Shown here piece by piece: positions 3,671 through 64,000 of a DNA stretch of 64,000 bases. The notes beneath the pieces were generated by a model. That model was given only the letters and a program-made list of their open reading frames with translations, was not told the origin of the DNA and did not search any database. Position numbers and translations under genes: made by a program. Each line of letters begins with the position of its first letter. Position 1 is the stretch's first letter. Source of the stretch: Apricaphanius iberus (lineage: Eukaryota; Chordata; Actinopteri; Cyprinodontiformes; Aphaniidae); the NCBI GenBank assembly GCA_028564705.1, contig JAPXFQ010002705.1, forward strand, positions 1,674,001 to 1,738,000, read 5' to 3'.

Positions 3671-5063
3671 ATCAACATAACATGGTCATAACGTGGTGGT
3701 CCCCCTCTTTAAAAAGGGGGACCACAGAGTGTGTTCCAACTATAGGGGGATCACATTTCTGAGCCTCCCTGGTAAGGTCTATTCGGGGGTTCTGGAGAGG
3801 AGGGTCCGACGGATAGTCGAACCTCGGATTCAGGAGGAACAATGCGGTTTTCGTCCTGGCCGTGGAACACTGGACCAGCTCTACACCCTCGGCAGGGTCC
3901 TGGAGGGTGCGTGGGAGTTCGCCCAACCGGTCTACATGTGCTTTGTGGACTTGGAGAAGGCGTTCGACCGTGTCCCTCAGGGTGTCCTGTGGGGGGTACT
4001 CCGGGAGTATGGGGTACCAGGCCCTTTGATACGGCTGTTAGGTCCCTGTATGAACGGTGTCAGAGTCTGGTTCGCATTGCCGGCAGTAAGTCGGACTCGT
4101 TTCCAGTGAGAGCTGGACTCCGCCAAGGTTGCCCTTTGTCACCGGTCCTGTTCATAACGTTTATGGACAGGATTTCTAGGCGCAGCCAAGGTGTTGAGGC
4201 GATCCGTTTTGGTGACCTCAGGATCAGGTCTCTGCTTTTCGCAGATGATGTGGTCTTGTTGGCTTCATCCGAACGTGATCTACAGCTCTCGTTGGAGCGG
4301 TTCGCAGCCGAGTGTGAAGCGGCTGGGATGAGGATCAGCACCTCCAAATCTGAGACCATGGTCTTGAGCCGGAAAAGGGTAGAGTGCCTTCTCCGGGTCG
4401 GGGATGAGGTCCTTCCTCAAGTGGAGGAGTTAAGGTATCTGGGGTCTTGTTCACGAATGAGGGAAAAATGGAGCGGAAGATCGATGGACGGATTGGTAAG
4501 GCGTCTGCAGTTATGCGGGCGCTGTACCGGTCTGTCGTGGTGAAGAGAGAGCTGAGCCGAAAGGCAAAGCTCTCAATTTACCGTTCGATCTACGTTCCTA
4601 CCATCATCTATGGTCACGAACGCTGGGTGGTGACCGAAAGAACGAGATCGCGGATACAGGTGGCTGAAATGAGTTTCCTCCGCAGGGTGGCTGGGTTCTC
4701 CCTTAGAGATAGGGTGAGAAGCTCGGTCATCCGGAGGGGGCTCAGAGTAGAGCCGCTGCTCCTCCAAATCGAGAGGAGCCAGTTGAGCTGGCTCGCGCAT
4801 CTGGTCAGGATGCCTCCTGGACGCCTCCCTGGTGAGGTGTTCTAGGCACGTCCCACCGGGAGGAGACCCAGGGGAAGGCCCAGGACTCGCTGGAGAGATT
4901 ATGTCTCTCAGCTGACCTGGGAACACTTGGGATTCCTCCCGAGGAGCTGGCCCTAGTGGCCGGGGAGAGGGAGGTTTGGGTCTCTTTGCTTAGGCTACTG
5001 CCCCCGCGACCCGACCCCGGAGAAGCGGAAGATGATGGATGGATGGATGGATCAACATAACAT
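3671..5063 (+). mobile_element. 5'-truncated RTE/Rex3-like LINE with 13-bp target duplication
   Basis: Reverse transcriptase fragment running through three frames. About 3693-4085 carries the fingers/palm part with GFRPGRGTLDQLYTL and FVDLEKAFDRVP. About 4085-4440 carries RQGCPLSP and the catalytic FADDVVLL. About 4447-4845 carries the thumb and connection with [13 protein letters not shown] residues, then a stop at 4843-4845 and further homology to about 5000. The 3' end is a short GGAT/GATG tandem tail (5032-5050). The 13-base word ATCAACATAACAT is repeated at 3671-3683 and 5051-5063, a perfect target-site duplication. Two frame shifts and at least one in-frame stop make it inactive. Assignment to RTE/Rex3 rests on the GATG tail and the motif spacing. 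Confidence 0.88.
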
Positions 5064-37866: not shown

Positions 37867-40800
37867 TGTGTGTGTGTGTCTATTAGCACGCCCAAGCTGC
37901 CTGTTTCTGTGTGTGGTGATGAGACCAGAAATTACACCTGCTTTAATGGAGGGAACTGCACTGACCGGGAGCTCTCCTGCGACTGTCCTGCTGGATTTAT
38001 TGGACACAGGTAGGACAGAATTGGTCCCTTCATTCATCCATCCTCTTATCTGAAGTCGCTGAGGTAACAGATCCAGCAGACTGAGCTAGGCATTCCTCAA
38101 GCATGAGGTTAAATATTGCTCCTCTGGTTAGTTCTGGGTTTGCCCTGGAGTCTTCTCTTAGTGGGGTGTGCCCAAAACATTCCCCTGGATGACACCATAG
38201 GAGAGAATTACTCATTAAAAAAACAATTACCAAAACAGATCCACATTTGAGATGTGGTGCATTTTTTTCATCTAGCCTTTTCCTTAAATTTGGTAATACA
38301 TTGAAAATGAATGCAGAAACCTGGCAAATAAAGAGAAATTACGAAAATGTGGTTGTTTCATTAACAGAAACACTAATAATGCGTGGACCTTATTTGCAAC
38401 AGCTGAGTAATCCTTCAGTGACGGTAGCCCCTTAACTCCACCAGGGCTTGCCATGAATTTGCCAGCTTTTTTACAGAAATTATTCTGACAATCTTTAATT
38501 CAGTACCAACCCCATTACAACTGTCATTCCCGTTTTCGGACGACTGCAAAGCAACAGACACAAAATATATAAACATGATTTCAAAGATGTAGAAAGAAGA
38601 ACATCGGCTTTATGAATAACATTGTTTATTGATCTTTGTGCTTAATGAAAAACAGCATCATGGGAAAAAAAACAATAATAAGATGTGATTACAGCGGAGT
38701 CCCTGAGTGTAGAGACAAATAAAATAATAATCCCTTATCGGAATCAAGTGCGAGGTACGAGTCAGCAAAATTAACCAAAATGTCTCACACAAGCCGCCTG
38801 TTTATTATATTGTGTCTTCACAATTTACTGCCTAAATTAAATTTAATTCATATATTTTATATTTCTATGTTTGTCTGAAATAAAACATAAATAAATAAAT
38901 AGTTTTGTGCTTTTGCAGGTGTGAGCAGGATGTGGACGAGTGCCACTCCAACCCGTGTCTGAACGGAGGCTACTGTAGAAACCTGATCAACAGGTTCGTC
39001 TGCGTGTGCGACATGAGCTACGCTGGAGACTTGTGCCAGACGGACGTAAGCGACATTTACTTTTATGTGGCGATACTGCTGTGGCAGAACCTCTTCCAGC
39101 TGCTGTCCTACCTCATTCTCAGGCTGGACGACGGGCCAGAGGTGGACTGGGGGGCTAACGACTGAGTGTATGTGGGTGTGGATTCTGCTGTGAATGTCTT
39201 TGTTTAGGGAAATGTCTGCTCAAATGCGGAGCTGTCAAATGAGTAACTGTCAGGTTGCTAGTGATGAGAATGGACAATAGTTTTGGACGGAAGCAGCACT
39301 GAGAAGGTGGTTATGAGACGGAAAATTAGGGACTACTGTGGTTTGATTTCTAAGACTACAGAGCAATTCTGTGCCTTTCAGATCCGCAGCACTTTATATA
39401 TAGTGGGTATTTATAACTTTTATTTGATTTGCACATTAAGGAGGAAGCTCATACGTCCTGATTCACAAACAGTGCTCTGGTTCTACCTGCTCCATTTCAG
39501 TGTCTGAGTCACAAAGCAAATAGTGCAAAAAAAATGCTCATCAGCTTTTTGCTCTCATGCAGTTTCTCTCGCCTTGCAGACGAAGTGGGAATGTCTTACT
39601 GAGCCCAATCCTTTTTTAATGATGAAGCAGGTCTCACTAACAGATTTGATTAGACTACGTTTTCCTTATTACCCACTGGATATAAAGTGGTATTATTTGG
39701 GATATTCCTTAAACATGAAATTTATTTATCAAACCTGACACTTTACACAACAGGAAATTATGGATTTAATCTACAATGTTTTATAAAATACAAAATTAGG
39801 ACAGTTTCAGGCTCTCCTTACTAGAAGTCCTGATGAATGATGCCTTCTGTACTGACCTTATCTTTTTTCTGTAAAGTCAGCTGTGTAGCAGATTACTTTT
39901 CTTGATAAATTTCTTCTTCTAAGTCTCAAATAGAAAAAGCTTTCAGGTAACTGCAAATTACATATTGCAAACAGCACCGGTATTATATTAGTGCTAGCCT
40001 TTTCCCTGAGTATTGCTGACGTAACCCTTTGGGGAGAAACGGAGCTTTAAAATTCAACAAGAGAGGCAATACAGGTGGCCTAATTGGCAGTACGTTGGAT
40101 CACAGATTGTAAACAGTTGTTAACTTGATTTGCCATTTTTTTCGGGTTGTGCTAAAACACTTTTTAATAGCACTGCAAACGTGTTTAGTACATCAACATA
40201 TTCATTTTTGAGAAGGTATCAGAGTCAACAGATTTTGAAAATGAATCTTTGTTCATTTTTCCACCTATTTTAATAAAAAAAAAAAAAAAATTTCCGGCGA
40301 GGTGATTTCTATGCTTTCAACTTTTTGTGGAGAAGCGCAGTTTGAGGTGCAAATCTTTCTTTGTGAATCAGATGCATGGGTGTGCAAAAGGAGTGCTGTG
40401 CTTTAGAGAGTTAGTGTCAGTAATAACAATGTGCAATTCTTTGTAGTAAAAAATATGAAAGAAGTGTTAAAGAAATGCATGAAACCTTTTCACAACCGGT
40501 AAAGATTCATTTTTATTTTTTAGTCCAACGCCAAGCTGATTTTCAAAGATCTTTTCCTTCTTTGGTCTAACAATTTTTAAAGAGAGTGGGGAATTTTATT
40601 TTCATTAACAAATGCACAGTAAGGATGAAAGTGCTGCTTGGTAATCAAGTTCGACTTCCTACAACAGGAAATCGTAGAAAATCCTAACTTTAAAAGATAC
40701 ACAGAAGGAAAAATCCATTTGAATTTATATTTGTGTGTATTTACGTGAATTACATCACAAGAAGCTCAACGTGGACTTTAATATTAAATGGATAATTAAA

Positions 40801-43800
40801 ACATAAACAATTAGGCAGAACTAAACTTCCTCATGTGATGTCACCAGAGGTGTGAGTGGAAAATTGTTTTTTAGGGGCTAGATTTTGTCCTCACATTTTA
40901 CAACAAAACAGAAAAACTGACCGTGACATGTTGTTCTTTACGGGTCAAAATGTGTAATGACCTTTGGTTATGTGGGAGTTTAGAGAAACAGGAGCTAAAA
41001 GCTTAATGTTTCAGATCGATTGGGACAAAAGAAAGGAGAGCAACAGAATACTGTTGGGGGAAAAAGTGTTGCATTATTTAAGCACTTTAAAGTAGAAATA
41101 GTGATTTAATATGTTAATGATTAATTTAAACATTCTGACAGTTTTCTGTCTGTCCAGTGTTATAAAGCTTTAGGTTATGATGTTGTAAAGGGAAGCATGT
41201 TCTGCTTCACAAAATACATTTTCTGTGAGCTGAGGAGTAACATAAAATCCCAGTTATTTATATGATTCCCTCTATCTGATAACCTGTCAGTCTTGTCAGA
41301 ACTTTGGGGTTTGGAAGCTGTGTACGGATGAAATTGTGAACTCTGAAAAACTGTGTTGTAGCTACAAAAGCTCCTGGAGGGCCCCGGATGTCTCACTTGT
41401 TCTTGATGTGCGTTCAGAACAGCTCGTGACTGACTGTTGAGTGTTGTTTTACACCAAAGATGGAAGTTTTATGCATCTAAACCTTTTTTTGTCTAAGCCA
41501 AAGATATTTTAAGCCCTCAAATTCTCAGCAGCTCTGCTTCAGCCATATGTTTAAAAGTGTTGCTACACTGCTGTGGTCAGCGATGGAACACTCACCAGTG
41601 TTTTTCACAGTAGACTTGGTTGTTTGAATTTTAGAACATAATCAGGGTATGAATGTAACGTCGTTTTTGTCAATTATATTCTTCAATCTGTGTGTCTTGT
41701 CTTTATCCATCTTCTGTGTTGTTTAATAAAACAAAATCAAGAAAAAAATTGTTTTCCGTCCTCTTTTAATGTCTCTCCACACATTTTCTCTTCTGTAATC
41801 ACCTGTTGTATCATGTGTTCTACATTTTCATAAACTATCTGAAAAAACCCCCCACAGAAATCTGTTCCATGATTGTCTTTCTGTGAGCCATTGCGTATGT
41901 GTGCGTGTGTGTATATTTGTTTGTTCTCAAGCGGACACCATGACATCAAACATAGTCAGTTAATCCGTTTTAACAAGATGTCGATCCCAGAATAGCCTGG
42001 GTTCAGATGCACACTCCCCCACAACGGAAGCTGAGGAGTAACAACATCGAACTTACGGACACATAAGTGATAAAAATATAAAACCTGAAAAAAAACCACA
42101 ATTAAAAATCATGTACTGGACGTTAAGGGCAAAATTACAACACAAAAATACCGTACAGTTTTTAAAAATAGCCTACTTTGATTGAAGAAATGTGTAAAAT
42201 GAGCATTTTGTAATTTTCCATAAAACAACAGAAGTAAATAACACTTCATTTACTTCCATCCATCCATCCATCTTCTTCCGCTTATCCGGGGTCGGGTCGC
42301 GGGGGCAGTAGCCTAAGCAGAGAGGCCCAGACTTCCCTCTCCCCGGCTACTTGGGCCAGCTCCTCGGGAGGAATCCCGAGGCGTTCCCAGGCCAGCTGGG
42401 AGACATAATCCCTCCAGCGGGTCCTGGGTCTTCTCCTGGGTCTCCTCCCAGTGGGACGTGCCCAGATCACCTCACCAGGTAGGCGTCCAGGAGGCATCCT
42501 GACCAGATGCCCGAGCCACCTCAACTGGCTCCTTCATTTACTTACAAGACATTAATTGTGTTTGATGGGATTATTGATGGTTCTAGAGTCTTAAAACTGC
42601 TGGGAGGACGGACCTACAGTAATGCTCCTTTGTCCACCTATGCAGAAATCTGTCACTGAAGGAGCTCAGGAGTTCAGAAACAGCTTCATGCATTGGGTGT
42701 GAGACGCTGTCTAGTAGTGATGTCGTTTGAACCAGAATCCTTCTGTCCCCATCACCTGCACTGGGTTGGGGTGTCATGCTGCAACAGACCTGGCCTTTCT
42801 GATGAGCTTATCTAACTGCTTCTTTCAGCTGTAGATAAGCCGCTGCTCCAACAGACTAAACCACAGAAGATGGCTAATGCTAACACAGAGTCAAAAAAGC
42901 TCTTCAGGAGCGGTGTTCAATCCTTCTTCTAAAAATGGGGTATATGGCACAACTTCAAACCTGCCAAGACATGGCCGTCCGCCGAAACTGACAGGCTGGG
43001 CAAGGGGAGCATTGCTCAGAGCAGCAGCCAAATGGCCCATGGTATAAAGGCCCTATGAATGTGTCCTTTACAGAAGAGTGACTAGAATAAACATTTTTTT
43101 AATAAGCTTTATCTGTACTTTGTATGACCTATTTAGTGGGTTAAAGTAAAAATTTTAAACCAACTGAGAATAAGCCATATCGATATTGTGAGTGAAATGC
43201 TCATGCCCATGCTCACGAATGCGGCTTGGACTCTCAGTCACGGCTTTTGGACCCCAAACAAACCCCGGGCTCGACTATAAACAGTGTATGCATGCATGTG
43301 TTTTTGTTAATACGGAGCCTATTAAAGCCTCTTAAAGACTGTTTTTGGCTGACTTTTCAAGTATACCCGGCATTCATTGTATTGTGGTTGGCTGTAGAAA
43401 CGGCAGTTACCATTACTGAATGGTGGAGATGCAAAACGCACCCGTGTATGAATGATACAGACCCTTGTAATGAACCACCATTTATTTTATATACATTACG
43501 TACAGAAAAGAAGGATCCAAATGGATGTGCGTGGTGGATAAACAAGGTAAGAAATGTGTGATTAAACATGTTAATTGTTCGAAACTTCGGTTGATCTTCT
43601 AGATCTTGGAAATGTATAGATACACTTTATTGAGACTGATGCGTTTCGACTGATGAAGATCAGGGTCATTCAGGAAGTGGGTGAAGTTGCATTGGCATTG
43701 CTGTTTTCTGATCGTCTAGATCTAACAGTTTTAGTTTTGGTAGCATAGTCATTAGCACTCAGAGCTCGCATAGCCTACTACTGGAAGTCGATGTGAAGGA

Positions 43801-46800: not shown

Positions 46801-49800
46801 CCCCTGAATATTAAAAACTTCTCCAAAGGTCATTCGGTCAGTTCTTTTATTAGAGTTGTTTTGATAAAGTTAATAAATAGGGAAAGATACCAATCACTGA
46901 TTAGGTGTGGGTAGTGGTGTAATGTCTGGCCAAAGAGCCTAATCAGGAGATCCCTAAATTTGAGGATTTGTTGAAAAGGCAGTAACTAAAACAGGCTTTC
47001 TGTATAAAACAAATGTGTTATTTTGATCATCTCTTCAGCTCAGATCAATTAGGATTAACAGAAAATTCTTCTTTTGCACAGTTTACACATTTTGCTATTT
47101 CTTTACAGACTTTCTTGAGCACAAGGTATACAAATTGTGGCACCTAACTCCTTTCAGCCTGCAAAACATGGATCTCATCTTCTACAGCATTTCTCTTAGT
47201 CTAGGGATGTGTGTGTTTGAGTTTCTGTGTCCTTTGCAGGCACAGGTAGCCCTGACGATGGGGAAACAGAGCGGGGAGGAAATGGGGGAAGTGGTTCTTC
47301 ACTGTTGGCACTGATGTGGCCATCCTTTGAGAGCAAAAGAAACGGAAAGGAAGAAATGTGCTTTGCCAGCGAAAAAAAAAGGGGTAGAAAAAAAAGGGAA
47401 AAAACAGCATCTGGCGCTGAAGTGCAGTTTCAGCAGAGAGCTGGTGGCATTCACAGAAGTTCGGTCTGCTTCACAGGAACGTATGAGGGCAGCTTATCTG
47501 GCAGGCACACACATACACACACACACAGAGCAGGTTGATAGTGCTGACAGCAGGGAAGCATCGCTGGCGTCTCTGCTGTGTGCGGCGCAGCTCTGCCGAG
47601 GCTTCAGGGTGGCCTCGCTCTGCACCTCAGAGACTGGTTAGTTAGACATCTCTGTGTCTGCGTCTGTGGCACCCGGTGACTGATGGCAGGTCCTGGCTGC
47701 AGGCTGCTCCGGCTCGCTTGTGTCACACTCGCTCTGACAGCCAACTGTGCTGCAGTGACAGGTAAGCACTTTCCAAGAGTCAACAAAGAACTTTGTAGCA
47801 GGGGGGAAGGAAATTCTCATGTCTACAGCGTCAAGCATGAGCGCCAGGGTTATTTTTCGCCTCAGGATACGGATAGTTGTATTTTAAATTAGAATTACTG
47901 TATGTTTCCATGTTGATTGCTTAGTGTAAAGTTTGCTGACTTCTGAGATTATTTTTGTGTAACCTGCCAAGTTCAGCATGAAGGTTTTAGTTCTGAAGAT
48001 GCTGTCAGCAAGGAATTGAAGTGCTGTGGAGACTTACAGCTTTTGACACTGTTGTAACCTTGTAGCAGCAGCTCAGAGAGTTACAGCAGCGACACCAACC
48101 ACAACCACCGGTGTAAGTGCTGGCCTGTTTTCTACTGGTGGTTAATGAACCTTTAGAGGCTTTAATTTCCTTAATTCATATGGATTTGCCTAAACTTTTT
48201 TAAGGGGTTTCTCTGCAGAACCTGATCATTTCAAGGTGGTGGTTTGTTGTGTGCATAAATCAAAATGTTGTAGAGCTTTAAAGGGCATATATCATCATTT
48301 ATACTTTTTAGTTCTGTTTCGGCTTGTAACTTCCAATGGTTGTTTTCATTTTCAACTCTCACATAAAGAGATATGTTAATAACCTTAAAGGAAAGTTACA
48401 ATTGGAAGGGTTAGCTGGAATTTGAGATTTATAATGTAATTCGTCCAATAAAGACAAGAAAATTTGAAGAAAGGTTGCCATAGCAGTAGGTTGGAGACTT
48501 AGCAGACCGGCACCTTATTCCTTCAGTGTGTGTGTATGCACGGCTCAATGGAACTATGGCGATGTTTGAGCTAAAACCTTAACCAGAATGAGATAATTTT
48601 TTCTGAGTATACATGTTTAGTAAGACAATAAAATAATTGAATGCTGTACGTTCAACTCTGCGACAGTAGGTAGCGCCATGCGCCCTTTCGCGTTGGCATC
48701 CTTTCGGTTGGCCTATAGCATCACACAAATAGTAAACAAATGCTGGCGACAGTGAAGCAAATGGAGTAAAAGCAGGATAAGCACAATGAGCCATATGCAC
48801 TCTTGGTCAGTCCAAAAATTGACATATCTAACACTTACATTTGTCTTTGTCGCCATCTTTTTCTCTTCTTCAACTGTGTTTTTTGTCATACCCGTGTTTT
48901 TCTTCCTGCTTCCTCCATCCACGCCCTTAATGTGCATTTAAACCCCCTGACTGATTTACCTGCTGTCTGCATTATTTGAGGGAGAATTATTTTTTTTATC
49001 CAATGTACTGAGGTCCCTCCCAACCCACAACCCCTTTTAAGATTCAAAGATGTCATCGTTGAAATACATCTCTGATGTAAATCCTACTCCTGTCTCTAAG
49101 TCGTGTTTCGGTGAATTTAGTTGCTGCACTTTTATTTGTTTTTCTTTATGAAGTTGATGTAGAGTGCTCCGTGCGTCCACAGCGGTTTCCATGATACGCA
49201 TTCACATTAATTGACATGAACAAGGCGGAAACTCTGATTCTATTGGTTAAAAATTAGCCAGTCGTTGTTAATTGCATGGGGATCTACCGGAGGAACGAGG
49301 GACTTAAGAAGAATAAGAAATCCTTCGGCGCACCACCCATATATCATGGTATAGAACTGAACAAACATTTGAAAGATTTAGAAAACTTTGATTTATAAAT
49401 AAATTCTCCAGTGTTAATAACGCTCTGTGATGAGCCCAGTTGGGTTGTATAACGGTGATGATCATTTATGACGAAAAGTTTAACGTGAAAAGCAAATATA
49501 TGTGCAGCTTTGAGTTTTCTTCTTTTTTTCTTCTTCTTTGAAGTAAACAATCCATTCTGGGATTATTAGGCCATCATCATATAATGGTAACATTTTGCTA
49601 TTTTGCTTTAGTGGCCGTGACTCAAAAGTCTTAATTATTTAGAGAAGTGTTTTTAAAAACCATAACATATCTACTTTAAGAAACAATTGTGAATGATCTT
49701 TTTTCATATATTCACATTTTGCGGTTCTAAGGCTCTATGACATGATGATATGTGCCCTTTAAGAGTAATTCAGAGCAGATTTCAGACAAATCAGACCCTG

Positions 49801-52800
49801 CTTTAAAGGGCATATATCATCATTTATACTTTTTAGTTCTGTTTCGGCTTGTAACTTCCAATGGTTGTTTTCATTTTCAACTCTCACATAAAGAGATATG
49901 TTAATAACCTTAAAGGAAAGTTACAATTGGAAGGGTTAGCTGGAATTTGAGATTTATAATGTAATTCGTCCAATAAAGACAAGAAAATTTGAAGAAAGGT
50001 TGCCATAGCAGTAGGTTGGAGACTTAGCAGACCGGCACCTTATTCCTTCAGTGTGTGTGTATGCACGGCTCAATGGAACTATGGCGATGTTTGAGCTAAA
50101 ACCTTAACCAGAATGAGATAATTTTTTCTGAGTATACATGTTTAGTAAGACAATAAAATAATTGAATGCTGTACGTTCAACTCTGCGACAGTAGGTAGCG
50201 CCATGCGCCCTTTCGCGTTGGCATCCTTTCGGTTGGCCTATAGCATCACACAAATAGTAAACAAATGCTGGCGACAGTGAAGCAAATGGAGTAAAAGCAG
50301 GATAAGCACAATGAGCCATATGCACTCTTGGTCAGTCCAAAAATTGACATATCTAACACTTACATTTGTCTTTGTCGCCATCTTTTTCTCTTCTTCAACT
50401 GGGTTTTTTGTCATACCCGTGTTTTTCTTCCTGCTTCCTCCATCCAGAACAAGGGAGTGAGCTGGGGAGGAGGAGTCTGTGAATCCCCCACAAATTCCCC
50501 CATGAAAGTGTGTCATTCTAGTAAACGGGGAGGAGTGAGGAGGCGCTGTTTATTCTTTTTTACAGTCTATGGTCTGGACATTTCAAAGGTCCAAATTTAT
50601 TAGGACTGAGGGAATAATTCAGGTTTCTCTTAGGACGTTTTCACATGTGTAGCCGTGCTAGAAAACGGCCCAAAAAAAATAAAAAGCTAATTTTTTTTTC
50701 TGTTCACATGGCACGGATCTCGGCCTGTGCTGGAATCCAGTGTTTTACTTGACGGACTACACCAAAACAGCAGGTGGCAGTATACAGATAATTCTATAGC
50801 TATCCAACAAACAAAGGAATTAGAAGTACCGACGTCATAAAACGGGTGACAGCCTAGACTGTAAACAAATTGGTCTACTGCTACCTGAAGCCATCCACAG
50901 GTTGAGTGTTGTAGTAAACTTGCCGTTTTATAGCCTCCTGTGTTGCTGTGGGATGCTTGAACATCGTTGTTTTGGTCTGTTTATGGTCGCGTGGCTATTC
51001 TGTACCGTTGGTCGGCGGTGTCGTCACTTCCGTGTGGAGCGTGTCTATTGTCTCAGGTACGGCCAAAGTACAGCTTGTGTTCACATGATCCGTAAACACT
51101 CGTACCTGGACTCCTCGAAAGAATGTCTCTCGGACCATATCCTGGCATGGTCACATGGTATTCACATGGTACAAAATAAGTGGATTTTTACCAAATACGG
51201 TAACCGAGTACGGATTTGAGTCCCATGTGAAAACGCCCTTAATGTGCATTTAAACCCCCTGACTGATTTACCTGCTGTCTGCATTATTTGAGGGAGAATT
51301 ATTTTTTTTATCCAATGTACTGAGGTCCCTCCCAACCCACAACCCCTTTTAAGATTCAAAGATGTCATCGTTGAAATACATCTCTGATGTAAATCCTACT
51401 CCTGTCTCTAAGTCGTGTTTTGGTGAATTTAGTTGCTGCACTTTTATTTGTTTTTCTTTATGAAGTTGATGTAGAGTGCTCCGTGCGTCCACAGCGGTTT
51501 CCATGATACGCATTCACATTAATTGACATGAACAAGGCGGAAACTCTGATTCTATTGGTTAAAAATTAGCCAGTCGTTGTTAATTGCATGGGGATCTACC
51601 GGAGGAACGAGGGACTTAAGAAGAATAAGAAATCCTTCGGCGCACCACCCATATATCATGGTATAGAACTGAACAAACATTTGAAAGATTTAGAAAACTT
51701 TGATTTATAAATAAATTCTCCAGTGTTAATAACGCTCTGTGATGAGCCCAGTTGGGTTGTATAACGGTGATGATCATTTATGACGAAAAGTTTAACGTGA
51801 AAAGCAAATATATGTGCAGCTTTGAGTTTTCTTCTTTTTTTCTTCTTCTTTGAAGTAAACAATCCATTCTGGGATTATTAGGCCATCATCATATAATGGT
51901 AACATTTTGCTATTTTGCTTTAGTGGCCGTGACTCAAAAGTCTTAATTATTTAGAGAAGTGTTTTTAAAAACCATAACATATCTACTTTAAGAAACAATT
52001 GTGAATGATCTTTTTTCATATATTCACATTTTGCGGTTCTAAGGCTCTATGACATGATGATATGTGCCCTTTAAGAGTAATTCAGAGCAGATTTCAGACA
52101 AATCAGACCCTGCTTTTATCGCTGCTCTAAAGGGCTTTGGTGTACATTTGTGGGAGCTATTTTGGGGACAATTGGTTGTGGTGCCAATTCTGGAAGGATG
52201 GGATCATCAGGCAGCATCTTGGCTGTATGTGCGTGTGTCTGTTTGTTTGTGATCCCTCACAGACGGAGCGTGCTCCACACAGCTCGCGGGTGGCTGCAGT
52301 GCTGGCACCGTGTCTGGTCTGCCTGGCGATAGTGGCGATGCTGGGGCTGGCGCTCCTTGCAGCCAAGCTGCGTGAGAGGCGACAGACGGAGGGAGGTTTC
52401 AGCCTGCGGCGACTCCAGGCTCCTGGTGGTCGCAACCCACCTGCTGAGCTGGGAAACACATCCATCAGCACGCTGGCAGAGCGAGTGGAGCGCCTGGTGT
52501 AGTGTGAAGGAGTCACGGGAGGGGAAAAAAGTGCTGGAGGGGGATAAATGTGTAAGACCATCTAGAAAATTATTACTTAGTTAAAATAAATCAACTCTGA
52601 TTCTGTCCCTCTAGCTGACCACTAAGGGTCTGACCTCCGACCTCTTGCTGTCTATCAGTCTGGCTTCTGTCATCCTGCTGCTGGTGCTGATCCTGACCTC
52701 CATCGGCTTAGTGGCCGCACTAAATCGGCGCGCCACCCATGGCACGTACAGTCCCAGCCGGCAGGAGAAGGATGGATCCCGAGTGGAGATGTGGAGCATC

Positions 52801-52833
52801 ACGCAGCCGCCGCCGATGGAGAGACTAATATGA
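14202..52833 (+). CDS. crb1: Crumbs cell polarity protein 1 (long, canonical form)
   Basis: Twelve coding exons: 14202-14283, 18253-18489, 20710-20905, 20998-21137, 21206-21388, 24613-25572, 28364-28914, 29981-30146, 31083-32019, 37887-38009, 38919-39045, 52615-52833. They sum to 3921 bases, 1306 residues, with every junction in phase. Order: signal peptide; about eight EGF repeats; laminin-G 1; EGF; laminin-G 2; EGF; laminin-G 3; about five EGF; one membrane helix; a 36-residue tail with the FERM-binding GTYSP and the PDZ-binding C-terminus ERLI. Crumbs is the apical determinant that recruits PALS1/PATJ and Par6 at the subapical region, and CRB1 acts in photoreceptors and Muller glia. The tail ([19 protein letters not shown], then EMW and PPPMERLI) fits CRB1 rather than CRB2, whose tail has SEGTYSPSQQE and PPEERLI. 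Exons 3, 4, 5, 8 and 11 have the human CRB1 exon sizes as I remember them. The convergent dennd1b agrees. Confidence 0.95.
14680..14704. repeat. (TA)n microsatellite
   Basis: About 12 TA units in crb1 intron 1. Confidence 0.95.
16060..16380 (-). mobile_element. Tc1-like transposon relic
   Basis: Reads TTCCAAAATAGCTCAGACTAAGTCAG...CACAGATT...TTTAGGGCTGGACTTTAACTGGGTCATTC...GTGCTTTGATCTAAAACC, the antisense of a widespread fish Tc1-family transposase region. Heavily mutated. Confidence 0.6.
18253..18489 (+). CDS. crb1: crb1 exon 2: EGF repeats 1-2
   Basis: CTCCTAG acceptor, then about 12 linker residues, one EGF from [14 protein letters not shown], and a calcium-binding type EGF from [16 protein letters not shown] that ends in exon 3. 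Human CRB1 exon 2 is more than twice as long as I recall it, so about three EGF repeats are absent here. Confidence 0.92.
18490..20709 (+). other. crb1 intron 2
   Basis: Contains a Tc1-like relic (18700-18935) and, around 19590-20140, possible degenerate non-autonomous transposon sequence ending ...GGTGAGCTGCACTTTAA. No coding exon seen. Confidence 0.8.
18700..18935 (-). mobile_element. Tc1-like transposon relic
   Basis: TTTTGTCACATTACAACCACAAA...TTTTATAGACCAACACA followed by AGAATCTGTGGCAAGCA are words found in fish Tc1-family inverted-repeat ends and transposase tails. Confidence 0.6.
20710..20905 (+). CDS. crb1: crb1 exon 3: EGF repeats 2-4
   Basis: Completes EGF 2 (GTTCEI), encodes EGF 3 ([14 protein letters not shown]...GERCEI) and most of EGF 4 ([20 protein letters not shown]). 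Length 196 bases. Donor GTGAGT overlaps the GAG codon; phase 2. Confidence 0.93.
20998..21137 (+). CDS. crb1: crb1 exon 4: EGF repeats 4-5
   Basis: 140 bases after a 92-base intron. Finishes EGF 4 ([15 protein letters not shown]) and encodes EGF 5 ([13 protein letters not shown]...CECWPG). Ends phase 1 at GTGAGT. Confidence 0.93.
21206..21388 (+). CDS. crb1: crb1 exon 5: EGF with long loop
   Basis: 183 bases after a 68-base intron. Encodes [19 protein letters not shown], then an inserted loop ([16 protein letters not shown]) and [12 protein letters not shown]. The long loop inside this EGF is a shared Crumbs feature. Confidence 0.93.
21690..22040 (+). mobile_element. Tc1-like transposon relic
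   Basis: CACTGTACATCATC...GTAACATGGCGTTGGTAACGTCATGCTGTGGGG and TTAATCCAACTGAGAATCTGT correspond to conserved C-terminal transposase regions of fish Tc1 elements. Confidence 0.6.
22317..22637 (+). mobile_element. RTE/Rex3-like LINE 3' fragment
   Basis: Diverged relative of the 3' part of the element at 3684-5050: CTCTCCCTTAGA...AGAAGCTCGGTCAT, AGGTATGTTCCACCGGGAGG, GAGGAGCTGGCCCAACTGGC...GAGAGGGAAGTCTGGGCTTC, CTGCCCCCGCAACCC and a GATGGATGGAT tail. Several stops and deletions. Confidence 0.85.
23440..23600 (+). mobile_element. Tc1-like terminal relic
   Basis: TTTGCAGCTGTAAAGCAACAAA...CCAGTGGAGTGAATACTTTTGCAA is typical of the terminal part of fish Tc1-family elements. Confidence 0.5.
23880..23885 (+). 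promoter_or_regulatory. Possible OTX/CRX site upstream of alternative first exon
   Basis: TAATCC, the core bound by photoreceptor homeodomain factors CRX/OTX, lies 162 bases before the ATG at 24047. A six-base word is weak evidence by itself; its position before a putative photoreceptor-type isoform start is the reason to list it. Confidence 0.25.
24047..24098 (+). CDS. crb1: crb1 alternative first exon in intron 5 (signal peptide)
   Basis: ATG ATG opens [17 protein letters not shown], 17 residues with a strong hydrophobic core, followed at once by the donor GTAAAT in phase 1. Exon 6 (24613) accepts phase 1, so the join gives ...LLGT-GSHCQV and goes on into EGF 7. The position matches the alternative promoter in intron 5 described for mammalian CRB1-B. 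With exons 6-10 and the read-through form of exon 11 it gives 1011 residues. No transcript evidence is visible from sequence. Confidence 0.68.
24099..24612 (+). other. crb1 intron 5, downstream part
   Basis: 514 bases, AT-rich, between the alternative first exon and exon 6. Nothing recognised in it. Confidence 0.8.
24613..25572 (+). CDS. crb1: crb1 exon 6: EGF 7-8, laminin-G 1, EGF 9
   Basis: 960 bases, the largest exon. Encodes [12 protein letters not shown]..., [12 protein letters not shown]..., then a laminin-G domain beginning [13 protein letters not shown] with [13 protein letters not shown] and closing with [12 protein letters not shown], and an [24 protein letters not shown]...HDCEEG. 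This corresponds to CRB1 exon 6 in size and content. Ends phase 1 at GTATTA. Confidence 0.95.
26690..26990 (+). mobile_element. Tc1-like transposon relic
   Basis: CTGACCAGGCAAGGAGTGCACTGATCA...GTAACTCTGGAGGAGATGCAGAG...TTTAGATCAAAGTGGATTCATGTGTTAG are conserved fish Tc1-family segments. Frame destroyed. Confidence 0.65.
27202..28083 (+). mobile_element. TTAA-flanked non-autonomous DNA transposon (complete)
   Basis: The left end is TTAA then AGGGGGAATT; the right end is AACTTCCCCT then TTAA. This gives imperfect terminal inverted repeats of about ten bases and TTAA at both borders (27202-27205, 28080-28083), the target choice of piggyBac-type transposases. Internal 874 bases have no transposase. 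A related copy lies at 12935-13497. Confidence 0.75.
28364..28914 (+). CDS. crb1: crb1 exon 7: laminin-G 2
   Basis: 551 bases. One laminin-G domain: [65 protein letters not shown], ending [13 protein letters not shown]. Donor GTAAGC after a complete codon (phase 0). Confidence 0.95.
28915..29980 (+). other. crb1 intron 7
   Basis: The 5' part is AT-rich; 29580-29960 contains a Tc1-like relic. No coding exon. Confidence 0.8.
29580..29960 (+). mobile_element. Tc1-like transposon relic
   Basis: TTCTGATCTCAATTCCATAGAAACTTTTTGAGCAG...GTCAGGAGGATTGGGTCAACATTCCAGCAAACTG...AGCTTGTGGAAG correspond to the last third of a fish Tc1 transposase. It reaches to about 20 bases from the exon 8 acceptor. Confidence 0.6.
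29981..30146 (+). CDS. crb1: crb1 exon 8: EGF repeats
   Basis: 166 bases. Encodes [19 protein letters not shown]...GRRCEE and a second, short EGF-like stretch [20 protein letters not shown] that continues into exon 9. Ends phase 1 at GTAAGT. Confidence 0.94.
30147..31082 (+). other. crb1 intron 8
   Basis: 936 bases. 30780-31030 contains degenerate Tc1-like words (ACACAACTGTACATTACC...AAAATGGTGGGTGTGGCATGATGC). The rest is featureless. Confidence 0.75.
31083..32019 (+). CDS. crb1: crb1 exon 9: laminin-G 3 and three EGF repeats
   Basis: 937 bases. Laminin-G 3 runs from about [16 protein letters not shown] through [11 protein letters not shown] to [14 protein letters not shown]. Then EGF repeats [12 protein letters not shown]..., [11 protein letters not shown]... 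and [12 protein letters not shown]... ending YTGPLC. Donor GTAAGT in phase 2. Confidence 0.95.
32810..33043. mobile_element. hAT-type miniature element with ~30-bp inverted ends
   Basis: Left end TAATGGTGCATTCAGACCAC and right end GTGGTCTGAACGCAGCATTA are inverted copies over about 30 bases (both continue into AGGCTTT/AAAGCCT). About 230 bases, non-coding. No clear target duplication was found. Confidence 0.78.
33430..33985 (+). mobile_element. L2-like LINE 3' end with (ATT)n tail
   Basis: The open frame 33472-33816 encodes the ORF2 C-terminus: [20 protein letters not shown], then [22 protein letters not shown] and [10 protein letters not shown]. It is followed by a short 3' UTR and an ATT run (33947-33980). 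The frame is intact across this piece although the rest of the element is missing. Confidence 0.82.
34000..34358. mobile_element. hAT-type element, longer relative of 32810-33043
   Basis: Shares GTGTCAGAGTTTCTGCGGCA..TTTTTCAAG and GCAAGCTTCAACAT...GGCGTCAAACTAG with the element at 32810, and ends GCGGTGTGAACGCACCATTAA. The stretch 34130-34290 recurs inverted at 55165-55310. Left end eroded. Confidence 0.65.
34461..34487 (+). repeat. (GGAT)n run
   Basis: ATGGATGGATGGATAGATGGATGGATG after CTCAGCGGTTCAGAAA, a frequent 3' tail of fish retroposons. Confidence 0.85.
35290..35640 (-). mobile_element. Tc1-like transposon relic
   Basis: GCCTATTCCTCCTGACAAATCTGGTGGAACTGAGTAATCTG...GAGGTTTTCCTC is the antisense of a common fish Tc1 transposase segment. 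Degenerate. Confidence 0.55.
37835..37879 (+). repeat. (TG)n tract just before crb1 exon 10 acceptor
   Basis: About 22 TG units with one TA break, ending seven bases before the TATTAG acceptor of exon 10 (exon starts 37887). It occupies the place of the polypyrimidine tract. Confidence 0.95.
37887..38009 (+). CDS. crb1: crb1 exon 10: EGF repeat
   Basis: 123 bases. Encodes [18 protein letters not shown], then [23 protein letters not shown]. Phase 2 at both ends. The acceptor TATTAG is weak because the usual pyrimidine tract is a TG repeat. Confidence 0.92.
38010..38918 (+). other. crb1 intron 10
   Basis: 909 bases, AT-rich; nothing recognised. Confidence 0.8.
38919..39165 (+). CDS. crb1: crb1 exon 11: last EGF, with alternative read-through membrane end
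   Basis: 38919-39045 (127 bases, phase 2 in, phase 0 out) encodes the last [20 protein letters not shown]...GDLCQTD, and ends at a consensus donor GTAAGC (39046). Spliced to 52615 it gives the canonical CRB1 membrane/tail. If the donor is not used, the frame stays open to a stop at 39163-39165 and adds 39 residues: a hydrophobic segment with [19 protein letters not shown], then [15 protein letters not shown]. That is a plausible second membrane anchor with a short acidic tail and no FERM or PDZ motif. A different 3' end is a feature of the mammalian CRB1-B isoform; I could not compare the residues. Confidence 0.85.
39166..41750 (+). other. Probable 3' UTR of the exon-11 read-through crb1 isoform
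   Basis: 2.6 kb with no recognisable transposon, in contrast to the repeat-rich DNA that follows, and ending near AATAAA at 41725-41730. This fits an expressed long 3' UTR, but no transcript data are available. Confidence 0.5.
41725..41730 (+). terminator. Candidate poly(A) signal for short-tail crb1 isoform
   Basis: AATAAA inside TTTAATAAAACAAAATCAAG after a T/GT-rich stretch. An alternative AATAAA lies in the A-run near 40270. Confidence 0.4.
42244..42543 (-). mobile_element. Short RTE/Rex3-like LINE insertion, 12-bp target duplication
   Basis: In reverse orientation, 42531-42256 holds only the last 276 bases of an RTE/Rex3-like element: [32 protein letters not shown] and [17 protein letters not shown] in one open frame, then a GATG tail. 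The word CTTCATTTACTT stands at 42244-42255 and 42532-42543, a perfect target duplication. With no decay in the frame, this is a recent insertion in crb1 intron 11. Confidence 0.9.
42600..42870. mobile_element. LINE fragment
   Basis: GTTTGAACCAGAATCCTTCTGTCCCC...GACCTGGCCTTTCTGATGAGCTTATCTAACTG...GCCGCTGCTCCAACAGACTA resembles the long 3' parts of L1/Tx1- or Rex1-type fish LINEs. Assignment by memory only. Confidence 0.4.
42935..43075 (+). mobile_element. Tc1-like transposon relic
   Basis: CCTGCCAAGACATGGCCGTC, then CGCCGAAACTGACAGGCTGG and AAGGGGAGCATTGCTCAGAG, a well-conserved part of fish Tc1 transposases. Confidence 0.75.
43371..44426. pseudogene. Relic of a mobile element with THAP-like (+) and SAP-like (-) pieces
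   Basis: On the + strand about 43371-43552, split over two frames, reads [13 protein letters not shown] and then [11 protein letters not shown]...[14 protein letters not shown]. This resembles the C..C / C..PPF / W pattern of THAP zinc-finger domains and ends at a GTAAGA donor-like site. On the - strand, 44426-44088 contains [20 protein letters not shown], like a SAP helix pair (K-x-x-L-x-x-x-L-x-x-RGL). The continuation 44172-43861 contains [13 protein letters not shown]...KWSQL. Such modules occur together in multi-copy transposon-like genes of fish. Both parts have stops and frame shifts. Function not claimed. Confidence 0.4.
44535..44620 (-). repeat. LINE/SINE 3' tail in reverse orientation
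   Basis: CAAACTTTATTTATAAAGCG, then CTTTTCAAACAAAGTTACTC and AAAGTGCTTTACAG, the antisense of the L2-type tail that also ends the element at 7405. Confidence 0.65.
44834..46122. mobile_element. DNA transposon with inverted ends and 10-bp target duplication
   Basis: Element 44844-46112 starts AGGGATGGGTATCG and ends CGGTACCCATCCCT (inverted ends); CCGATACCGGTGCC near the left is mirrored by GGTGCC...GGATATCGG near the right. The word ACCCATCACT flanks both sides (44834-44843 and 46113-46122). An 8-10 base duplication suggests a hAT-type transposase. Inside, 1.27 kb without an intact transposase frame. Confidence 0.8.
46123..47682 (+). other. crb1 intron 11 stretch upstream of nested gene
   Basis: 46180-46290 has TACTTAAGTAAAGTAAAAAGTA-like sequence related (inverted) to the repeat at 420-600. 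From about 47230 the DNA becomes purine- and GC-richer and carries a (CA)n run at 47503-47527; this may be the promoter and 5' UTR of the nested gene. Confidence 0.45.
47503..47527. repeat. (CA)n microsatellite
   Basis: CACACACATACACACACACACA, about 12 units, 155 bases before the ATG of the nested gene. Confidence 0.9.
47683..52502 (+). CDS. CRB3-like small membrane protein nested in crb1 intron 11
   Basis: Three in-phase exons: 47683-47761, 48066-48112, 52263-52502, giving 121 residues; mammalian CRB3 has 120 as I recall. Exon a encodes a signal peptide ([20 protein letters not shown], donor GTAAGC, phase 1). Exon b (47 bases) encodes [15 protein letters not shown], a Thr-rich ectodomain suited to O-glycosylation, with donor GTAAGT in phase 0. 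Exon c encodes TERAPHSSR, a membrane helix ([20 protein letters not shown]) and [16 protein letters not shown]3 has LREKRQTEGTYRPS at this place. Here the FERM-binding TYRPS is replaced by FSLRR and the protein ends AERVERLV instead of ERLI. AATAAA stands at 52585-52590. The open, GC-rich exon c and perfect splice sites support a real gene; whether it is an independent gene or an alternative promoter unit of crb1 is open. I know no named gene at this place. Confidence 0.58.
48276..49800 (+). repeat. Tandem duplication, copy 1 (1525 bases)
   Basis: Unit 48276-49800 is repeated directly at 49801-52112. Alignment offset is 1525 up to 48921 and 2312 after it. I see only isolated mismatches (e.g. 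CAACTGTG versus CAACTGGG; GTTTCGG versus GTTTTGG). Copy 1 lacks 787 bases present in copy 2 (50447-51233). Confidence 0.9.
48278..49762 (+). mobile_element. TTAA-flanked DNA element, internally deleted copy
   Basis: Left TTAA (48278-48281) then AGGGCATATATCATCAT; right ATGATGATATGTGCCCT then TTAA (49759-49762). The 17-base ends are inverted with one mismatch. TTAA target and size suggest a piggyBac-type non-autonomous element. No transposase; the 73-codon minus-strand frame inside is not recognised. Confidence 0.8.
49803..52074 (+). mobile_element. TTAA-flanked DNA element, long copy with nested insertion
   Basis: Same ends as 48278-49762 (TTAA at 49803-49806 and 52071-52074), 2264 bases between. 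Contains a second element at about 50631-51238. Confidence 0.8.
50631..51238. mobile_element. Nested DNA element with inverted GTTTTCACATG ends
   Basis: Left end TTAGGACGTTTTCACATG and right end CATGTGAAAACGCCCTTAA are inverted repeats of about 17 bases with a few mismatches. About 600 bases, no transposase. In copy 1 only its last bases (CGCCCTTAA) remain. Confidence 0.65.
52263..52502 (+). CDS. Membrane/tail exon of the CRB3-like unit
   Basis: CTCACAG acceptor at 52262; phase 0 entry. 79 residues: TERAPHSSR linker, 20-residue hydrophobic helix, [10 protein letters not shown], then a non-canonical tail ending [15 protein letters not shown] and TAG. Because entry is phase 0, it can follow either the 48066-48112 exon or crb1 exon 11 (donor 39046, also phase 0). 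It could thus be a third alternative C-terminus for crb1. It is only 112 bases upstream of crb1 exon 12. Confidence 0.6.
   Translation, partial: TERAPHSSRVAAVLAPCLVCLAIVAMLGLALLAAKLRERRQTEGGFSLRRLQAPGGRNPPAELGNTSISTLAERVERLV
52615..52833 (+). CDS. crb1: crb1 exon 12: membrane helix and canonical tail
   Basis: CCCTCTAG acceptor, phase 0. 72 residues: LTTKGLTSD, helix [20 protein letters not shown] and on to AAL, then [15 protein letters not shown] (FERM-binding GTYSP), GSRVEMW and the PALS1/Par6 PDZ ligand ERLI, stop TGA at 52831. This is the most CRB1-diagnostic part of the gene. Confidence 0.97.
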
Positions 52834-61081: not shown

Positions 61082-63222
61082 TTAGGACTTCTCTGTGGCT
61101 TTTCCTTGGACCTTATGGTGGCTGTTGCTGCAGTGGACTTGAGAGAGATGCAGGCTACTGTGAAGAGGTGCACTAAGGCAACACATGGACTCGATCTCCT
61201 CCAGCAGGCCCAGATCCTGCCCCCCAGGAGTCTCCGAGCCTTTGCTCTGACCCAGACACAGACCAAACCCCAGGAGCCCATCTTTGGAAACCTCTTTCTC
61301 CCACGGGACCTGGACGCCGGCATGGCTGTTCTTCGTCGGGCACGCCTGGCTTTCGTGGTTTCCTTTTCTCTCCTCTCTCCTGAAGGACCTCTCGTGGTAG
61401 TTTTTCACCATCTCTTTGGACATGACCTTTCTTCGCAGGATGCCGGTAGACCCAGTTTGGTTCTGGGTTTGGGAAGGCTCGGAGCTTCCCTGAGGGTCAG
61501 AGATGGTGCGAATCCGGCCAGTCGGTGCTGGAGAGGAGTTTGGCTGAGATGCAGGTGCAGCAGAGCGGTGGGTGTGTGACAAATTGGGGGAAGAGGGTGT
61601 AACTTTATGGGACAGTAACGGGGAATAGGATAAGCGGTGATCTCTTGTCTGTCTTCCCGATGGCAGAAGTTGAGTGTCAAGATGGGACTTAGAGGAGTAG
61701 AGAGGAGAATCTGACTTGGTGCCGTTGGCATCAGGGAAAAAGGATGCAGCTGAGCAGGCTTCCTCTGTAGAGCAGGCTGAGAGGTTTTTGGACCCCTTGA
61801 GGCTGCTCCTGTTGGGTTTTCTACGTGGGGATGGAGGAAGGTGTTTTCCATGGACGGCGCTGTCATCCTGGCCCATGTTCCATCTTCCGTGATCAGCTCC
61901 ATCATCAAAGCTGCTCTTGTCTTCAGCTGTGTACTCACTGCAAGGCGTGGGCTTCGACTGGAGGAGGTGAAATGAGGAAACAATTAAAAAAATACAAAAA
62001 ATAAAACCCATCAGGACTATTAAAAATGTGTAAATCATGTTTAATACCAGTGGTCCCAAACATGGACTGCTTTAATATTGACAATATAAAAAATATAACA
62101 AAATAAAAAGAATGAATGTGCACCAAACTCGGGGTCATTTTTAAAATATATTAAATGTATATCCAAAGTATGCTTGTAAATTTATCAGCAGCTTTTCTGT
62201 ATCTTGCCAACAACATAACATGAATACCATCCTCTCTGTCCGCTAACGCGCTCAAGTCCCTATGGTAACGTTTAAAAAAGCCTTTAAAACATGATTTACC
62301 ACAAAAACAAATACAAAATGCATGAAGAATACAACCCAACACAAAGCTGAATTAGTGGCTAATTCAACTGTAATAAAACAGTCCCATCTGGGGCACTTTA
62401 GAGGTTCACTGCGTCATTAGATAGCCGGTACATGCCACATATTAAGCAGAGAGATAAATCCATATTTTCAGTATGACTCCTGGTATCTTCTGTTAAATGT
62501 GGCTTGCTTTCTTTCTTTCTTCTTCTGTCTCTTCATTGGACCTTTTGATTTTTAGAAAAAAACTTTTCAGAAACTTCTGTTTTTAATAAATCTGCTAGAT
62601 TTTGGGTTTATTTTTAGCAGTGACGTATCACATTAATGAGGCACATTGATGTTTAGACCTGGATGATAAATGAAGCAGAAATACAGTAAGTTATTCATTT
62701 TTTACTGTGTGGCTCACGACCCAGTACCAAATGACCCGCAGCCCGGTACTGGTCCGGAGCTTGGGGACCCTCCATTTACAACACTCAGTTTGAATGATGT
62801 TCAGTTTACTGTTCAAGTTAACTAGAGAAAAAGCTTAAGTTTTCCCAAGAAAAATATTTTAAATACAAAGCAATGAGTCTCAATTCTGAGGTTTTAAATA
62901 CATCTATTTCCACCAAACATTTTATCCCCTTCCTGTATTAAGTGCTAATCTTTCTTTTGCATCTTTATTTTCTTACACATTGATTTAATCCATCTTGCAT
63001 ACCTGGACCTTGTAGTCTAAGTCATCCAATGACCTAAAGAAGTCCAAGCTCTTGGCAGCACTGAGCTTTCCTTGATCCATTGTTGTGGTGTTCAGAGAAT
63101 CCAGGATTTCCTCCAGCAGGTTCATCTGGCTGGAAGGCGAGGGTTCAATATCTGGGCAGGAGTCAGAATCGTCACTGTCCTCTGTGTACGACTGGACCTC
63201 ACCGCTGTCTTCAGACGAGATC
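61082..63222 (-). CDS. dennd1b: DENN domain-containing protein 1B, C-terminal exons
   Basis: Two minus-strand exons. 63222-63003 (220 bases; acceptor TTTAATCCAG, donor GTATGC) encodes ISSEDSGEVQSYTEDSDDSD, then PDIEPSPSSQMNLLEEILDSL, and AAKSLDFFRSLDDLDYKVQ. It joins in phase 0 to the last exon 61957-61082 (291 residues, stop TAA), which begins SKPTPCSEYTAEDKSSF and is rich in Ser and Pro. DENND1 proteins (connecdenns) activate Rab35 through an N-terminal DENN domain and bind AP-2/clathrin through a long disordered tail. Only the tail is in this window; the DENN domain lies beyond 64000. The AAKSLDFFRS.DD.DYK stretch is what I recall from DENND1A/B; the choice of B rests mainly on linkage to crb1 in convergent orientation. 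Confidence 0.82.
61958..63002 (-). other. dennd1b intron between the last two coding exons
   Basis: 1045 bases. Contains a CTTT run (62506-62524) and, at 62690-62775, CCGCAGCCCGGTACTGGTCCGGAGCTTGGGGACC, a piece of a widespread vertebrate hAT repeat. Otherwise featureless. Confidence 0.8.
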
Positions 63223-64000
63223 CTGGATTAAACAAAAAAAGAAAAAAAAAGAAACAGAAGAGTTATCTGAAGGTGATTTCTCATTTTCATGACATGGGTT
63301 TGAGATGATTTAAACTGACATGTTTGTTAAACACTGAACATGTGACTGCTGCAGAATATAATAACCAGGATTTTTTCTGTAGATCTTAGTCTATAATTGT
63401 AATAAAGAAGAATTCCACAGACTGAAGGAAGACTCCTTAACCTGTTCTGCCAAAACTGTCATCCTTAGAGATGTTTCGGCATTTATGTACTTTTATATTT
63501 CAGCATTTAAGTATGTGAGGCCTTTCTGTCTGTAACTCAGAAAAGATGAAAAGATCAAGGCTATAATTATGGTGAGCAAAAGCAGGATTAACTTAAAACC
63601 TGCATGAAGAAACTTTTAATTTAAATAAAATAGAACAGGGGAATAAAGTCTGGAGCTATCCAATACTTGATGCTCTAATAAACTGATTCACCACATAAAC
63701 GTTAATGTAATACTATCTATTTAAGAATTTATTCATTTTAATTGTATTCATTTTGGAATGAAAACCAAAAATTTAATTTCTAAGAAAATTTGAACATTTC
63801 ATTAGACCATCTCTATATCGACAAGCCACAAAAGGCCATCGCTAAAGAACCTGAATGTTGAAAGAATGCTGAAGCCAAAGATATAGACGGAAAATTAAGT
63901 AGAAGGAAATAAAGTCAGTAAAGAAGAGACCATAATATTATTTAGCATTTACTGATTTAAATATTTAATTATTATTTTTGTTTGCAACAAATTGTATTTG
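63223..64000 (-). other. dennd1b upstream intron (partial)
   Basis: AT-rich DNA preceding the TTTAATCCAG acceptor; no exon seen to the window edge. Confidence 0.7.

Follow-up and report, generated by a model that had tools for sequence, protein, structure and literature searches.

Unlike the other Crumbs proteins, CRB3 has no EGF or laminin-like domains, and no explanation of their loss was met in the literature covered, which is drawn on here in excerpts of the cited articles. The crb1 locus of the fish Apricaphanius iberus raises the question of whether a CRB3-type gene can lie inside a long crumbs gene. The window, the whole stretch of DNA that was analysed, comprises 64,000 nucleotides (nt) of contig JAPXFQ010002705.1 (assembly GCA_028564705.1, positions 1,674,001 to 1,738,000, forward strand). 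Three exons located between the last EGF exon and the membrane exon of crb1, here called the nested unit, could encode a small membrane protein. Judged from the sequence, the nested unit is most likely a real, old CRB3-type unit, and it is probably a short gene of CRB3 type within the last intron of crb1.

The exons measure 79, 47 and 240 nt, and in-frame joining gives a product of 121 residues. Coordinates, phases and product length were all reproduced as the original prediction had them, as was the placement of the unit on the crb1 strand between the two crb1 exons. The predicted protein has a signal-peptide-like start (best 12-residue hydropathy 1.95), a short Thr-rich ectodomain stub without EGF or LamG domains, one helix and an ERLV end. 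In exon 3 the single helix is followed by the basic RQTEG juxtamembrane, which is a trait of CRB3. The known CRB3 genes, including a free-standing crb3 on contig C138 of the same genome, share with the nested unit the signal exon, the short EGF-free ectodomain, the single helix, the RQTEG juxtamembrane and the division into three coding exons. The nested unit is unlike them in its position inside crb1, in an altered motif in place of RQTEGTYRPS, in ERLV in place of ERLI and, by eye, in a stub that has no N-glycosylation site. The CRB3 layout originally claimed stands for the signal start, stub, helix and RQTEG, but the FERM-binding motif is degraded and the end is not ERLI.

Exon 3 is the best match to human CRB3 among the 2090 six-frame open reading frames (ORFs) of the window (blastp E 2.6e-7, phmmer E 4.7e-7), with the crb1 membrane exon nearly level (E 2.8e-7 and 6.9e-7, respectively). 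Against human CRB1, the crb1 membrane exon reaches E 6e-24, and exon 3 attains no more than a phmmer E of 0.4. The human CRB3 query was a hand-entered sequence, whose last 20 residues match an antibody peptide printed in PMC6237394. Comparisons within the genome, which involve no hand-entered sequence, gave 31.2 bits (pairwise E 5.8e-7) between exon 3 and the crb2 tail on contig C50, and 30.4 bits (pairwise E 1.1e-6) between the whole nested product and the C138 crb3. A pattern independent of any query sequence was also applied, in which a hydrophobic helix had to be followed by RxxxGx[YF] and by [ED][RK][LI][ILV] at the C terminus. Just two ORFs of the window fit it, the crb1 membrane exon and nested exon 3, a result that is flattered by the widening of the pattern to F and V once exon 3 was known. 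The pattern had no match in 150 shuffled windows or in 150 GC-matched sequences of 64 kilobases (kb); as a control, four other crumbs loci were scanned over 40 kb each, and every one gave a single match, at the known tail.

The coding score of exon 3 is 0.571 bits per codon in frame versus at most 0.518 in the other five frames, and it exceeds that of all 148 ORFs outside known exons. A search of the PDB returned no Crumbs relative for exon 3. Scans for stray fish DNA were empty, as expected, both in prokaryote genomes (crb1 membrane exon and exon 3) and in viral contigs (exon 3). By its scores exon 3 is well beyond chance, and the similarity searches place it in the Crumbs family in the broad sense, with helix, juxtamembrane and PDZ-type end homologous. 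The features of the locus are listed in Table 1.

Table 1. Positions in the window of the nested unit and of the surrounding crb1 features
Feature	Position	Strand	Description
Nested unit exon 1	47683..47761	+	ATG and signal-peptide-like start; donor phase 1; in-frame TGA 6 nt 5' of the ATG
Nested unit exon 2	48066..48112	+	47 nt; Thr-rich ectodomain; phase 1 in, phase 0 out
Nested unit exon 3	52263..52502	+	Stub, transmembrane helix, juxtamembrane, C-terminal ERLV and stop
GC-richer stretch just 5' of exon 1	47235..47682	+	Candidate promoter and 5' untranslated region, putative
AATAAA	52585..52590	+	Possible poly(A) signal, located past the nested stop and ahead of the crb1 membrane exon
Last crb1 EGF exon	38919..39045	+	Pfam EGF E 8.5e-8; phase-0 donor; read-through up to 39165
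crb1 membrane and tail exon	52615..52833	+	Contains GTYSPS and ERLI; phase-0 acceptor; E 3.1e-8 to the Drosophila Crumbs tail (4wsi chain X)
Two tandem TTAA-flanked elements with inverted ends	48278..52062	.	Fill nested intron 2

The case for exons 1 and 2 is weaker and depends on their splice sites, the hydrophobic start and the likeness to the C138 crb3. Splice sites were scored with hand-entered matrices and ranked among the plus-strand sites of the window. The exon 1 donor, CAG/GTAAGC, ranks 2nd and the exon 2 donor 152nd among 3604 GT sites, and the exon 3 acceptor is 99th among 3996 AG sites. When the transposons are set aside, the nested stretch has a length of 879 base pairs (bp); at this length an equal or better exon 1-2 chain occurred in none of 300 real intron stretches and in 7 of 300 Markov sequences. 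Over the full length, with the transposons included, an equal or better chain was present in 30 of 300 introns and 35 of 300 Markov sequences, and the top-scoring chain in that chance test used an exon 2 (48219-48235) different from the one predicted at 48066-48112. Pseudo-exons of 47 nt with the phases of exon 2 are expected 0.03 times per 879 bp (3 of 97 pseudo-exons in 87,000 bases). The predicted exon 2 is favoured because its 47-nt length is common to it and the C138 crb3 exon, and this is the strongest new support for it. A chance ORF joined to chance splice sites would agree with the finding of such a chain in about one in ten introns of this length, but exon 3 would be unexpected by chance and its sequence match speaks against the idea, which we regard as very improbable.

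To place the nested unit among the crumbs genes of this fish, the genome (1,195,412,853 bases in 1979 contigs) was searched. With human CRB3 as the query there were at least seven matches at E <=10, comprising tails on contigs C50, C42, C138 and C169 (E 1.5e-8 to 4.9e-5), nested exon 3 (E 0.007), the crb1 exon (E 0.026) and a match on C872 (E 1.61) that was dropped as chance. The nested protein used as query matched only its own exons 1 and 3 at E <=0.001. Because the tails on C50 and C42 contain ARKKRQSEG, end in VPPEERLI and have EGF/LamG matches upstream, these two are assigned as crb2 genes. The tails on C138 and C169 are KKKRQTEGTYRPSAEEQ and RKKRRMEGKYRPSAEEN, both ending in LPKEERLI, and the 40 kb at C138 2959001-2999000 and at C169 1817001-1857000 contained no relics that tblastn with the EGF/LamG ORFs of crb1 could detect at E 0.01; both are therefore assigned as free-standing crb3 genes. 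By these assignments the genome holds crb1, two crb2 and two free-standing crb3 genes, and the nested unit is a sixth, extra member. The set without it is the same five as in zebrafish, given as Crb1, Crb2a, Crb2b, Crb3a and Crb3b (PMC11129452), although which of C138 and C169 is crb3a is unsettled. Identity of the nested unit with one of the two free crb3 genes was rejected, since both were found separately in the genome search. At the two crb2 genes, the pattern scan covered 40 kb each and detected no second, nested tail.

The C138 crb3 consists of a signal exon of 88 nt ending in phase 1, an ectodomain exon of 47 nt and a phase-0 membrane-tail exon of 210 nt, which together encode 114 residues; the stretches searched offered a single candidate each for the ectodomain exon and the signal exon. 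The nested unit has the same three-exon plan, with phases 1 and 0 and a second exon of 47 nt. For the C169 crb3, a search of 20 kb failed to recover the signal and ectodomain exons; the 24 candidates there include one of 47 nt (NATTSSKKTTSWLQK), situated about 13 kb upstream. In this gene the membrane exon (C169:1836955-1837158) is closely preceded by an in-frame TAG, and its acceptor is poor. The C169 crb3 may be altered or differently started.

An exon plan identical to that of the C138 crb3, with the introns kept, would also be possible for a DNA-level copy of a free-standing crb3, one that landed later in the crb1 intron by dispersed or segmental duplication and has no bearing on the origin of CRB3. 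The nested tail, however, is far from both crb3 tails. In pairwise comparisons it scored 40.0 bits with human CRB3, 31.2 and 28.5 with the crb2 tails, 26.2 and 20.0 with the crb3 tails, 19.2 with human CRB1 and 18.1 with crb1 of the same locus. In the tail tree its branch is long (2.09) and falls between crb1/crb2 (40.5/55) and the crb3 group (81.9/68); crb1 and human CRB1 are joined at 100/100, and the other inner supports range from 40.5/55 to 91.9/76. This tree is unrooted and puts crb1 inside crb2, and is to be read as rough. In a tree of the genome's own tails, the two crb3 tails pair at 89.2/87 with the nested tail outside. The bit scores and trees argue that the nested tail is not a recent copy of the crb1 last exon or of either crb3. 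A copy of crb3 would thus have to be old, and its landing 112 bp 5' of the crb1 membrane exon, in the same direction, would be a coincidence, so that we see such a copy as conceivable without favouring it.

A recent tandem copy of the crb1 membrane exon was likewise rejected, on the bit score and the tree. The two exons are alike in being phase-0 exons with a helix, a tail and an ERL-type end, and differ in sequence to the extent that just 18.1 bits are left between them. A phylogeny of helix and juxtamembrane had been proposed with the original prediction; in the tail tree the nested tail does not join crb1, and its position outside the crb3 group has weak support. A four-residue juxtamembrane insertion unique to CRB3 and the nested exon was considered and rejected, as the alignment with the crb2 and crb3 tails of the genome contains no such insertion.

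The phases at the locus permit a further arrangement, in which these exons are alternative ends of crb1 and not a separate gene. Exons 1 and 2 would then provide an internal promoter feeding the crb1 membrane exon, exon 3 would be an alternative last exon of the long crb1, and the locus would mix ectodomains and tails. Joining of the EGF exon to exon 3 and of exon 2 to the crb1 membrane exon are both open, since all four junction ends are in phase 0, and the acceptor of exon 3 scores 8.0 versus 6.6 for that of the crb1 membrane exon. The second of these joins would give a short protein with the canonical GTYSPS and ERLI, and exons 1 and 2 joined to the crb1 membrane exon produced a Pfam match to Kinocilin (E 0.0009) that is below the cut-off. 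There is precedent in zebrafish Crb2b-sf, a shorter crumbs product with an internal start in intron 7 of the long crb2b gene, although Crb2b-sf uses ectodomain exons 8 and 9 of the long form and the nested unit has its own membrane-tail exon (PMC7044448). A second precedent is CRB1-B, which has its own promoter, first exon and last exon within the CRB1 locus; unlike the nested product, it carries much of the CRB1-A ectodomain and is without the two conserved tail motifs (PMC7335077). Against alternative ends, the CRB3-like plan with its 47-nt second exon is complete without any crb1 exon, and phase 0 before the membrane exon also occurs at C138 and, by eye, in the crb2 genes, so that the phase fit is unspecific. 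We consider alternative ends possible, if somewhat doubtful. They are compatible with a separate CRB3-type gene and do not exclude it, and the confidences placed in the two overlap.

Several results weigh against a CRB3-type gene in the crb1 intron. The evidence base is the DNA of one genome from one species. When 17 fetched stretches were searched by tblastn with exon 3, no match appeared at E 0.01. Pfam returned no family above the cut-off for the nested protein, and the nested unit was not among the matches listed at E <=10 in the genome search with the C138 crb3 protein. The exon 2 acceptor, a NAGNAG site, is weak (rank 477 of 3996 AG sites). The whole nested coding sequence scores 0.438 in frame versus 0.583 in a reverse frame, which gives no codon-usage support for exons 1 and 2. 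Of the five fixed positions in the FERM-binding motif RxxxGxYxPS, the tail retains two, including the G; Y is changed to F, and P and S are lost. The tail also holds RNPPAE, a partial RxPP recalling the RxPPxP that is given as a tail sequence unique to mammalian CRB3 (PMC6237394). RxPP is missing from three other crumbs tails checked, and since these include both crb3 tails of the same genome, the partial motif does not appear to be a mark of CRB3 here. Finally, neutral drift was simulated with stops counted and indels left out, and 272, 561 and 840 of 2000 runs had no stop at 39, 60 and 70% identity, respectively; with 272 runs still stop-free at 39% identity, an open frame alone is weak proof of selection.

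The degraded FERM-binding motif, the weak exon 2 acceptor and the transposons in intron 2 would all suit a decaying pseudogene of an old crumbs-type unit. Set against these are the open frame, the matching phases, the strong exon 1 donor and a PDZ-type end at the exact C terminus, and we consider decay quite unlikely.

The surroundings of crb1 were compared with those of the other crumbs loci. A DENN exon is situated on the minus strand about 69 kb past the window (C1759 1806838-1806939), and on C169 a near-identical DENN exon, likewise on the minus strand, follows the crb3 tail at a distance of about 11 kb. We take this exon type to be that of DENND1. Because of the matching minus-strand exons, crb1 with its nested unit and the C169 crb3 both appear to face a DENND1-type gene; no DENN exon was found on C138, C50 or C42 among the 37 matches listed. 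In the Russian sturgeon, CRB3 and DENND1C are listed within one 40-kb interval (PMC11395957). The nested unit is inside crb1, unlike a free CRB3 gene convergent with DENND1C.

The original prediction saw in this locus a hint at the origin of CRB3. Before the genome duplications of the vertebrates, the last intron of an ancestral long crumbs gene might have contained a short unit of promoter and exons from which CRB3 began. The copy on the DENND1C side would have lost the long part and become CRB3, and crb1 of this fish would keep both, so that the locus may still mix long and short ectodomains with CRB3-like and CRB1 tails. We put this forward tentatively and regard it as rather unlikely. What holds of the prediction is a CRB3-type unit nested in crb1, at a locus converging on a DENN exon of the DENND1 type; an origin of CRB3 from an internal unit of this kind is not established, given the weak tree and the lack of a nested tail at the crb2 genes. 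In the titles and abstract openings searched, no CRB3-like unit inside crb1 is described, the likeliest source, Omori and Malicki 2006, being outside that search. A CRB3-type unit inside a long crumbs gene would be a concrete and testable intermediate.

Elsewhere in the window, ten ORFs were submitted to Pfam. EGF or laminin G domains were identified in all six from the crb1 ectodomain, and the other four, namely two minus-strand ORFs, the crb1 membrane exon and the ORF of exon 3, were without a match. The host intron is presumably intron 11 in human numbering. The two TTAA-flanked copies that fill nested intron 2, presumably of the piggyBac type, are 99.8-99.9% identical and have a common flank of about 40 bp, and the first copy is without an inner block of about 0.8 kb. 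Without these elements the intron has about 365 bp, and exons and introns sum to a unit of about 1.0 kb before the recent insertion. The read-through of the last EGF exon (38919-39165) resembles what we take to be a fish form of the CRB1-B C terminus. This C terminus is stated to be conserved across vertebrate species (PMC7335077). By eye, ORF pieces at 3681-4845 and 42238-42533 resemble the reverse transcriptase of retrotransposons without long terminal repeats, and the minus-strand ORFs 61085-62071 and 62988-63227 fit the C-terminal part of a DENND1 gene (DENND1B). The minus-strand ORFs of the window at 61-63 kb had no Pfam match and no tblastn match at C169.

As a short CRB3-type gene, the nested unit would be transcribed from a putative internal promoter before 47683. 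The GC content is 0.48-0.56 in the 200-base bins of 47200-47799 versus 0.37 and 0.34 in the two preceding bins; CpG observed/expected is 0.38-0.53 around exon 1, and there is thus no CpG island. The three exons would yield a secreted-pathway, single-pass protein, predicted to be apical, with the Thr-rich stub outside and a 45-residue tail inside. PMC5968619 gives the FERM-binding motif as RxxxGxYxPS and the PDZ motif as ERLI, with the variants E/D-R/K-L/I-I/L in basal animals. The ERLV end is a conservative change from ERLI that falls outside these variants, and it would most likely bind the PDZ domain of PALS1 or PAR6. The damaged FERM-binding motif would bind FERM proteins poorly, which would make the product a PDZ-biased mini-crumbs. 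In flies, the PDZ end acts in polarity and the role of the FERM motif is in later steps, and a section heading of the same article states that the Drosophila Y10F transgene rescues (PMC3564977). In mammary cells, CRB3-driven growth requires the FERM part and not ERLI (PMC6237394). In view of these roles, a PDZ-biased mini-crumbs would support polarity without the FERM branch. The unit would have diverged long ago from crb1 and both crb3 genes while its open frame and usable splice sites were kept.

The nested unit may add a sixth crumbs product in fish, and its combination of a PDZ-type end with a damaged FERM-binding motif would be useful to separate the two functions of the tail. In fish crb1 mutants, lesions near the last exons could affect two products, which may matter for how these mutants are read.

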